Positions 47,346 to 49,853 of a stretch of 59,538 bases of DNA are shown piece by piece. The stretch is from NCBI GenBank assembly GCA_026392155.1, contig JAPLCP010000078.1, positions 403-59,940 of the forward strand, in the 5' to 3' direction. The position numbers were made by a program, and so were the translations under genes. Source of the DNA: Armatimonadota bacterium (GTDB lineage Bacteria > Armatimonadota > Armatimonadia > Armatimonadales > Armatimonadaceae). Numbering within the stretch: the first letter of the stretch is position 1; each line of letters begins with the position of its first letter. The notes below the pieces were generated by a model. It worked only from the letters and a program-made list of their open reading frames with translations. It did not search any database and was not told the DNA's origin.

Positions 47346-47471
47346 ATGGCCACACGGCAACAACGTAGCATCAAATCCAAGTCTCGCTCCCGCACCGCGC
47401 CTTTCTGGCTCCTCTTCGTGATTCTCATGATTGGTTTAGTCTTTTATTTCGGCTTTATCAAGGTTGACTGA
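47346..47471 (+). CDS. 41-residue single-pass membrane protein
   Basis: A small gene with a basic N-terminus (MATRQQRSIKSKSRSR) and one hydrophobic helix (APFWLLFVILMIGLVFYFGF) ending KVD, a layout typical of small integral membrane proteins with the N-terminus inside. ATG 47346 is preferred because of the TAGAAT box 7 nt upstream; ATG 47337 is an alternative. The 3' end overlaps the convergent BNR gene by 14 nt. The function is unknown. Confidence 0.6.
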   Translation: MATRQQRSIKSKSRSRTAPFWLLFVILMIGLVFYFGFIKVD

Positions 47472-48531
47472 GCCGCACGTGCCGAATGGTCTCTCCGTCT
47501 CCTCCACTGAAGCTATAAGTCAGGTGCACCGAGCCATCCGATGCCTGCAGTAGCGACGGATACGACTTGCTTGCTTTCTCGCCCTCATCAACGTGCATCG
47601 TGCCAATCCAGTGCTTACCTTCGTCTTCCGAGTACGAGAGCGCAAGCTGGTGGCGCCCGTCTTCGGTGTCGTTGTAGCACAGAAGCCAGCGCCCATCGCG
47701 CAGCTTAAGGACATCTACGCTCGAGCCGGGATTGAGGAGCTGGTTGTGGGTGGCGACCGTCCAAGTCAGCCCATTGTCCCTCGACTCACTCACGAGCATC
47801 CGCTGTGGCGCGGGGCCGTTGTTGCGACAAAATGCCACGATCACACCATCTTTGCGCCGCACTAAGCTGGGCTGAACCGCTCCCGGCCCGATCAGCGGCT
47901 TGGAGCAGCTCCAAGTCTGCCCCGCATCTTCGGTGATGGCGACCAGCGAGAAGTTATAGCCATCGGAGTAGAGTGGCAGGAGCATTCGCTTGCCCTCAAT
48001 CAGTGGCTTGCAGCGCCCCATCCAGCCCATCCGCCGCTTGAGCTTATTCTCCGCCATCGCCAGCAGCTCCCCGCGGTACTTCTCCAGCTCAGGATAGGTC
48101 GCCAGCACTTCTGGCAACTTGGCACGCACCTCGGCAGGAAACTCATCATCGCCTGGCTTGAGCGGCACGACTCCAGAATCGTCCCACTTCCCGATTTTTC
48201 GCCCCACTTTGTACTTGAGAAGCGTGCTCTCCCAGTTGTTATCCAGCTGCATCCCATAGAACAGCCAGAGCCGCCCGTCGCCATTGACGGCCAAGACGCA
48301 GTTTGTATCCGGAAAGCCCGGCGTGTCGGCCAGCACAAATGGCTTCGACCAGTTCCCTCCCTTGAGAGGCTTGGTCGCTCCCATAATCCGTACATCGTCG
48401 GCCTTGCGCTCGCCCGAGCCCATGTACCAGCAGACCAGAAGCTGGCCACGGGGAAACTCGACGATACTGCTGCTATGGCTATGCAGCTTGCCGAGGGGGA
48501 AGATCAGCTCAGAGGAATACAGCGTTGTCAT
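47458..48531 (-). CDS. BNR-repeat sialidase-like protein
   Basis: A 357-residue six-bladed beta-propeller of the sialidase/BNR_2 family. At least three Asp-box blades are visible: TEDAGQTW, SESRDNGLTWT and SYSEDEGKHW. It begins FPLGKLHSHSSSIVEFPRGQ, with VCWYMGSGERKADD following. No signal peptide is seen, so it may act on intracellular oligosaccharides or be exported by another route. Homologues are called exo-alpha-sialidase or neuraminidase, but many act on other sugars. The ATG at 48529-48531 lies 9 nt from the arm of the inverted-repeat module, and the gene is divergent from the CE15-like esterase. Confidence 0.85.
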   Translation of the reverse strand: MTTLYSSELIFPLGKLHSHSSSIVEFPRGQLLVCWYMGSGERKADDVRIMGATKPLKGGNWSKPFVLADTPGFPDTNCVLAVNGDGRLWLFYGMQLDNNWESTLLKYKVGRKIGKWDDSGVVPLKPGDDEFPAEVRAKLPEVLATYPELEKYRGELLAMAENKLKRRMGWMGRCKPLIEGKRMLLPLYSDGYNFSLVAITEDAGQTWSCSKPLIGPGAVQPSLVRRKDGVIVAFCRNNGPAPQRMLVSESRDNGLTWTVATHNQLLNPGSSVDVLKLRDGRWLLCYNDTEDGRHQLALSYSEDEGKHWIGTMHVDEGEKASKSYPSLLQASDGSVHLTYSFSGGDGETIRHVRLSQP

Positions 48532-48540
48532 GCTCGTATG

Positions 48541-48596
48541 TTCGTGCGAGGAGTTTAAAATTCCTCGCTGGAGGCGCTACGCGCCGAACGCCCTCC
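48541..48596. repeat. Left arm of inverted repeat with operator-like palindrome
   Basis: This arm contains a 7-bp-stem palindrome at 48546-48568 (GCGAGGA / TCCTCGC) whose loop holds a minus-strand TAAACT (48552-48557) 20 nt before the BNR ATG. A second hairpin, GGCGC/GCGCC, follows. Confidence 0.75.
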
Positions 48597-48810
48597 GGGC
48601 GGAGGAGTATTATCTTCATTTGTGGCTTCGAGGCTTGGCCACGTAGTTGCGTCTGTATGGTGCGTTTTCTGGTTCTTGATATAAGCAACCGCTCGGCTCA
48701 TCATGCCCATTAGGATTTTACTTCGCTTCATACCCATAGAACGGGTGAGGCAGGCCATTTCTGATAAAACGACCGAAAAATTCTCTATCTGTCGAAATAC
48801 GTTTTGGCCT

Positions 48811-48866
48811 GGAGGGCCTTCGGCGCGTAGCGCCTCCAGCGAGGAATTTTAAACTCCTCGCACGAA
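48811..48866. repeat. Right arm of inverted repeat with operator-like palindrome
   Basis: Mirror of the left arm: the palindrome lies at 48839-48861, with a plus-strand TAAACT at 48850-48855, 20 nt before the CE15-like ATG. The spacing is the same as on the other side. Confidence 0.75.
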
Positions 48867-48875
48867 TCTAACCGC

Positions 48876-49853
48876 ATGGACGATCTCAAGGGCATTGCTG
48901 GCCCTCTCCCTCCCTTATTCGCACCAGGCACGACGGCGGAGCTGTGGCGCACGAAGCGTCGCCCGGAGCTGATGAAGCAGTTCACGGAGCTAATGTATGG
49001 CGAAGCGCCGCCTGCCGAAGCACCAAAGGTGACCGTGCTGAGCGAGAAGCCCATGGATGGGTTTCTGCTCCGCAACATTCGCCTTCACACCGGGATTCTT
49101 GGCCCTGTCTCGCTTCAGCTCACGCTGCCACTGAAGCAGTCCAAGCCCGCGACTACGTTTCTGGCGCTGAACTTCACGGGCAATGAGTCGCTGCACTCAG
49201 GCCCGACGGCGTGGAGCTTTGCGGAGGCGGCGAGGCGCGGGTTTGCGATTGCGACGGTCTGCTACGAGGAGCTGGCGGCGGATCGGAAAGAGTCGCCGCT
49301 CTATGAGTCCAAGTACCGGGCGGTCTCGCTGTGGGCGTGGGGTTTTTCGCGCCTGGTGGACTGGGCACTGACAGTTCCTGAGATCGATGGCAGAAAGCTC
49401 ATCGCGCTGGGGCACTCGCGCCTTGGCAAAGCGACCCTCTTGGCTGGCGCACGCGACGAGCGCTTTGCGGCCGTGATCCCCCACCAGTCCGGCACGGGCG
49501 GTGCGGCCCCGAGTCGTGGGACGATTGGTGAATCGGTGCAGCGCATCAACACGGTCTTTCCGCACTGGTTCAACGATGCCTACAAAAAGTTCAACGAGCG
49601 CACGGGCGACCTACCCTTCGACCAGCACTGCCTGCTCGCCTGTGTCGCGCCCCGCCCGATTCTGCTCTCCAATGCGCAAGACGACACCTGGGCCAACTAC
49701 GACGGTCAGTATGCACTATTAGATGCCGCACTGCCCGCCTGGAAGCTCCTCGGCGGCGACGAGACGCTTGTACGAAAATTTATGCGCCCCGGAAAGCACG
49801 CCATGCTCCCTGAGGATTGGACGGCTTTCCTGGCCTTTGCGGAGAAGCTCTAG
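48876..49853 (+). CDS. CE15-like glucuronoyl esterase / alpha-beta hydrolase
   Basis: A 325-residue alpha/beta hydrolase. The nucleophile elbow GHSRLGKATLLAGARDERFA matches the CE15 (glucuronoyl esterase) GCSRxGK motif, with His in place of Cys. Further family blocks are FPHWFNDAYKKF, LPFDQHCLLACVAPRPILL, DDTWANYDGQ and PGKHAMLPEDW (catalytic His region). These enzymes cleave ester bonds between glucuronic acid and lignin, or act as acetyl-xylan-type esterases on plant material. No signal peptide is seen. It is divergent from the BNR gene across the inverted-repeat module, suggesting joint control of polysaccharide breakdown. Confidence 0.83.
   Translation: MDDLKGIAGPLPPLFAPGTTAELWRTKRRPELMKQFTELMYGEAPPAEAPKVTVLSEKPMDGFLLRNIRLHTGILGPVSLQLTLPLKQSKPATTFLALNFTGNESLHSGPTAWSFAEAARRGFAIATVCYEELAADRKESPLYESKYRAVSLWAWGFSRLVDWALTVPEIDGRKLIALGHSRLGKATLLAGARDERFAAVIPHQSGTGGAAPSRGTIGESVQRINTVFPHWFNDAYKKFNERTGDLPFDQHCLLACVAPRPILLSNAQDDTWANYDGQYALLDAALPAWKLLGGDETLVRKFMRPGKHAMLPEDWTAFLAFAEKL

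Follow-up and report, generated by a model that had tools for sequence, protein, structure and literature searches.

The module that lies between two divergent genes in a 59,538-nucleotide stretch of an Armatimonadota genome, referred to here as the window, raises the question of whether it is a regulatory site that serves both neighbors or a mobile element. On one side is a gene for a BNR_2 (sialidase-like repeat) protein on the minus strand (47458..48531), and on the other a CE15-like (glucuronoyl esterase-like) gene on the plus strand (48876..49853). A left arm (48541-48600) and a right arm (48807-48866) form an inverted match that is 97% over 60 bp and was extended to 83 nt at 86% in a repeat search. 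The distance from the arm to the ATG was 9 nt on both sides (the genes start at 48531 and 48876), as the first-pass annotation had claimed. Each arm contained the palindrome GCGAGGAATTTTAAACTCCTCGC (23 bp), whose chance expectation in the window was 0.00, and a TAAACT located 20 nt before each ATG, features that the annotation had also described correctly. Its statement that no similar arrangement occurs elsewhere in the window agreed with a palindrome search, which found no further copy of GCGAGGAATTTTAAACTCCTCGC there beyond the two arms. An Rfam search of the window gave no match, and a search of the genome_contigs collection with the CE15-like protein gave no relatives.

The genome that holds the window (G000; 4.77 Mb in 228 contigs) was compared with a single congener (G001). 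In a RecA search, the best matches among the records returned had 66-72% identity and came from Actinomycetota, Bacillota and similar groups. The CE15-like protein at the same locus of G001 was 92% identical, and the same arms occupied the same place beside the same two genes, the conservation that the annotation had proposed to look for. In G001, the arms enclosed a longer core encoding a full 164-residue Y1 (HUH, IS200-like) transposase (L048:3280-3774), which matched PF01797 (Y1_Tnp, E 1.7e-22) and NF033573 (70.8 bits, cut-off 55) and in which DHVH and YIKNQ were present. Alignment of the window core with this gene revealed that 294 bp, or 98 codons, were missing in frame, with the junction of the internal deletion at 48709..48713. 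The 58 codons that are left form an in-frame transposase remnant on the minus strand (48555..48731), upstream of the BNR gene on the same strand, that went beyond the first-pass annotation. The remnant reads MKRSKIL followed by MGMMSRAVAYIKNQKTHH... and has kept the start and the catalytic-tyrosine helix, while the HUH motif is among the deleted codons, so that the window copy would not be a functional enzyme. On this alignment, the module arose from a Y1-transposase unit by deletion and is not a classical MITE. With its matching arms and intact Y1 gene at the orthologous locus, the G001 comparison places the Y1 element between the two divergent genes since before the split of the two known species of the genus. 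In the ancestral state, a single Y1 (HUH) gene would have been bracketed by its own inverted three-hairpin arms; in the G000 lineage, the 98 codons with the HUH site would then have been lost, the arms and the promoter surviving. The transposase stop codon in G001 overlaps the BNR start codon (ATGA, L048:3771-3774), an arrangement that suggests translational coupling of the two genes.

Three successive hairpins were found in each arm. In the left arm, which is the 3' end of the element relative to the transposase remnant, these were H1 (48546-48568), H2 (48573-48585) and H3 (48589-48601), with a DNA fold z of -3.4. In the right arm, which lies upstream of the promoter, H1 (48839-48861), H2 (48822-48834) and H3 (about 48806-48818) were present with a fold z of -4.6. 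Across 20 copies of the arms, 97% of the cells in H1 and H2 were paired and there were 17 double-sided changes, compared with 4.2 in shuffles. H3 occurred in the variants CGCCC/GGGCG, CGTCC/GGACG, GGCCC/GGGCC and TGTCC/GGACA. In the compact copies, described below, and in the G001 element, an arm with a CGTCC or TGTCC hairpin was matched by a partner with CGCCC or GGCCC. Both window arms were instead of the CGCCC/GGCCC kind, the right-arm H3 corresponding to the type that the opposite arm carries in G001. Since both window arms share one H3 kind, their near-identity looks like local homogenization, with the sequence of the left arm apparently copied over that of the right. A palindrome very like the window H1, GCGAGGAGGTAAACGTCCTCGC, was also observed about 100 bp before a Y1 start in another genus (L094, G007 C48).

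Many arm copies were found in G000 outside the window. Compact inverted arm pairs of ~130 bp were located on contigs C47, C122 and C128 and halves on C139 and C152, and further copies, compact pairs included, occur in G001, giving about a dozen sites per genome. The annotation had offered the possibility that a regulator acting at both arms, each with an outward -10 box, controls the BNR and CE15 genes jointly. The position of both arm ends so close to the ATGs, with almost no other intergenic DNA, favors such a twin operator, as does the retention of the arrangement in G001. However, the TAAACT proposed as the -10 box reads TCAACT in both G001 arms and is therefore not conserved, the core is a transposase remnant, and the other copies, rather than being confined to the promoters of carbohydrate genes as an operator would be, are intergenic and adjoin unrelated genes, some of them between codirectional genes. 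The twin operator is consequently considered very improbable. The arms may have some outward promoter activity, since the two start codons have only about 18 bp between them that are not part of the element. The other proposal, a miniature transposon, held in so far as the dispersed arm pairs and the transposase in the congener copy point to a mobile element, from which we infer mobility of the unit; the classical MITE form of the proposal was not sustained. The search for copies in the genome and the congener that the annotation had recommended yielded the dispersed arms, while neither target duplications nor empty sites were visible among the arm copies listed. Only one of the seven compact or partial copies was at a shared place in both species (C122 of G000, C8 of G001), so that gain and loss are not told apart.

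The element has relatives within the genus. A PF01797 search identified three further Y1 loci in G000 (one with a frameshift) and seven in G001, among them the orthologue, for a total of 11 with the window. Gene-specific inverted arms were found at 10 of the 10 other Y1 loci, compared with 0 of 54 control genes in the same test. The intact Y1 proteins of the genus carry Y---Q--HH, and no HTH family was detected in the two that were scanned. A second internally deleted Y1 gene was observed in G001 (L114, C1:923756), which had kept its arms while its promoter had decayed; like the window remnant, it keeps the reading frame.

The closest known systems are the TIRtrons with their TIR-associated tyrosine transposases (TIRYTs; Di Nocera et al. 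2013, PMC3733652), in which a lone Y1 gene is likewise enclosed by inverted repeats that are specific to that gene. Some of these repeats are self-complementary, and they also occur scattered through the genome, singly or in pairs. As in TIRtrons, the Y1 gene here lies between inverted repeats of the non-GTAG type. However, TIRYTs mostly fall into subclass 2.1 and bear an HTH at the C terminus, whereas the proteins of this genus have a subclass 1.2-type Y motif. TnpA-Y1 subclass 1.2 (PMC6006769) shares the Y---Q--HH signature and the low copy number, but reports of it come mostly from Cyanobacteria and Bacteroidetes and describe no typical terminal structures, while all of the genes described here have structured arms. 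RAYT/REP units (REPtrons, BIMEs and REPINs; Nunvar et al. 2010, PMC2817692; and, by its title, PMC3116915) resemble the element in that a Y1 gene is flanked by two inverted palindromic repeats that differ from gene to gene and in the occurrence of non-autonomous inverted pairs elsewhere in the genome (PMC2817692). In contrast to these units, the arms described here have few copies and no conserved GTAG (GT[AG]G) head, none being found in 20 arm copies. Identity as a RAYT was rejected, as the score with the NCBIfam RAYT model was 28.4 bits (cut-off 80) and NP(L/V)(R/K)xG was absent near the tyrosine. The typical IS200/IS605 insertion sequence has no terminal inverted repeats (PMC2817692) and was ruled out by the long inverted arms at all 11 Y1 loci.

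A second feature of the core that went beyond the first-pass annotation was a promoter motif, TTTATCAGAAATGGCCTGCCTCACCCGTTCT, on the minus strand (48738..48768), with an A/T-rich tract just upstream (about 48771-48786). It was directed toward the BNR gene only, which starts 237 nt past the motif. The first clue to the motif was a match between part of the window core and sites before radC and a DUF559 gene. A wider pattern of the motif occurred at 11 sites in G000, 14 in G001 and none in 12 other genomes, and the reversed pattern had no sites. A sequence-only promoter model built from 28 sites, applied with a threshold of E < 1e-3 (the next match was at E 0.47), found 19 sites in G000 and 22 in G001 (41 in the genus) and had no matches in 59 other genomes of the phylum; the window site had an E of 4.3e-11 (model R1). 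By eye, no shared motif was seen before the Y1, comM and radC genes of G004-G014. For most of the Y1 genes and several of the DUF559 genes, the start codon was located 37 nt after the start of the motif, and if CCGTTNT is the -10 element, mRNAs with this spacing would be leaderless.

The motif precedes recA, radC and comM in both genomes, recQ (three sites), rpsF-ssb-rpsR (G001), comEA-like HhH genes (three sites) and an SLBB-HhH comEA (both genomes), giving five comEA sites in total. It is also found before eight DUF559 genes, one of them a 52-residue fragment, all 11 Y1 loci, genes for PEP-CTERM-like proteins (assigned by eye) and a few unknowns. Two near-identical copies in G000 (L173 on C157 and L176 on C145) had no obvious gene downstream. 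The set was interpreted as a putative competence and recombination regulon, known from two species. A DNA-damage (SOS-like) regulon, in which the transposases would be induced by damage and not by competence, could also account for the presence of recA, ssb, radC and recQ. However, comEA, with its five sites in two genomes, and comM, with two, are uptake and transformation genes, and the motif has no dyad, unlike LexA boxes, and sits at promoter distance. Because comEA and comM are in the set, the competence reading was preferred and the damage regulon is regarded as unlikely. The streptococcal core SigX competence regulon (PMC5069739) is similar in that one promoter element precedes recA, ssb, radC, comEA and other uptake genes, but its motif differs and the set in this genus extends to Y1 transposase and DUF559 genes; the main text of that paper does not use the word transposase. 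A weakly sigma-like protein (L174:145-921 and L179:130-909), 64% identical between the two species, has the motif upstream in both genomes and is perhaps the regulator of the set. Its Pfam matches were below the cut-off, no PDB match was significant, some sigma factors being among the matches listed, and the AlphaFold model, made from two sequences, had a mean pLDDT of 64.

The motif at the Y1 genes may simply have been inherited from one element that had captured a host promoter, in which case it would have no present regulatory meaning. All Y1 genes are homologous, and a promoter inside the arms would travel with the unit, as this explanation supposes. However, the Y1 proteins of the genus share 36-64% identity and are not monophyletic, one of them pairing with a gene of another genus with support of 97/91; despite this divergence, the motif was at a nearly constant distance from the start codon. 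A matrix was also trained on 13 sites, none of them before a Y1 or DUF559 gene; with it, sequence outside the regulon sites stops at 11.4 bits. Ten of the 11 Y1 sites scored 26-49 bits, with the window site at 44.3 bits, and the eleventh, at 8.6 bits, belongs to the internally deleted G001 gene, so that the sole decayed motif is that of a Y1 gene with an internal deletion. The motif is also shared by the DUF559 genes, which have no relationship to Y1. Mere inheritance is therefore doubtful, and the module is best described as what is likely an internally deleted TIRtron-like Y1 element with a promoter of the type shared with the DNA-uptake and recombination genes of the host.

The DUF559 genes may represent a second kind of inverted-arm unit. 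Six of the eight that bear the motif are enclosed by inverted matches, 31-115 bp long (E 1e-5 to 1e-43), the best being up to 115 bp at 95% (L083, L116, L128, L166, L172 and L177, in G000 and G001), whereas none were found around radC, comM, recA and comEA in the same test. Two of the eight were negative, and for one of these, on G000 C69, the test was not a fair one, its ORF running on into the next gene. The DUF559 arms fold less convincingly than the Y1 arms. It is conceivable, though somewhat less than an even prospect, that the Y1 and DUF559 units both belong to the competence regulon and act at the time when single-stranded DNA enters the cell, DUF559 being the nuclease of an undescribed mobile or domesticated element. 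In one open library, no DUF559 inverted-repeat units were met in titles or the openings of abstracts.

Taken with the family to which it belongs, the intact transposase would act on single-stranded DNA by cutting and joining it at the arm hairpins. A host factor, perhaps the sigma-like protein, for which the evidence is weak, would switch on the transposases along with the genes for uptake and recombination. Since their promoter type is that of recA, rpsF-ssb, radC, comM, comEA and recQ, the transposases of the genus are probably produced during the import or repair of DNA via single strands. In the window today, predicted transcription from the motif would continue across the remnant and enter the BNR gene. 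The Y1 gene within inverted arms is the known TIRtron architecture, and the promoter link to the regulon is the unexpected part; no such link to recombination or competence genes was found in PMC3733652, and searches of one open library for transposases in a competence regulon gave nothing beyond papers with words in common. These single-gene transposon-like units appear to be wired into the putative competence regulon, which suggests that DNA uptake turns on transposons of this type. If true, this class of transposase would be timed with the DNA-uptake and recombination genes, when the single-stranded substrate is at hand, the motif would provide a ready-made regulon marker for a poorly studied lineage, and the DUF559-based unit would be a second kind open to testing.

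Two observations were made near comM in other genomes. In another family (L197, G012 C45), comM is immediately followed by a Y1 gene that has inverted arms (57 bp, 82%), and after this gene the 3' end of comM occurs again as a 211-bp copy with 96% identity. At L198 (G014 C1:5270000), the 3' end of comM is duplicated (138 bp, 82%) downstream of the gene, and between comM and the duplicate are two small ORFs that, by eye, resemble a toxin-antitoxin pair.
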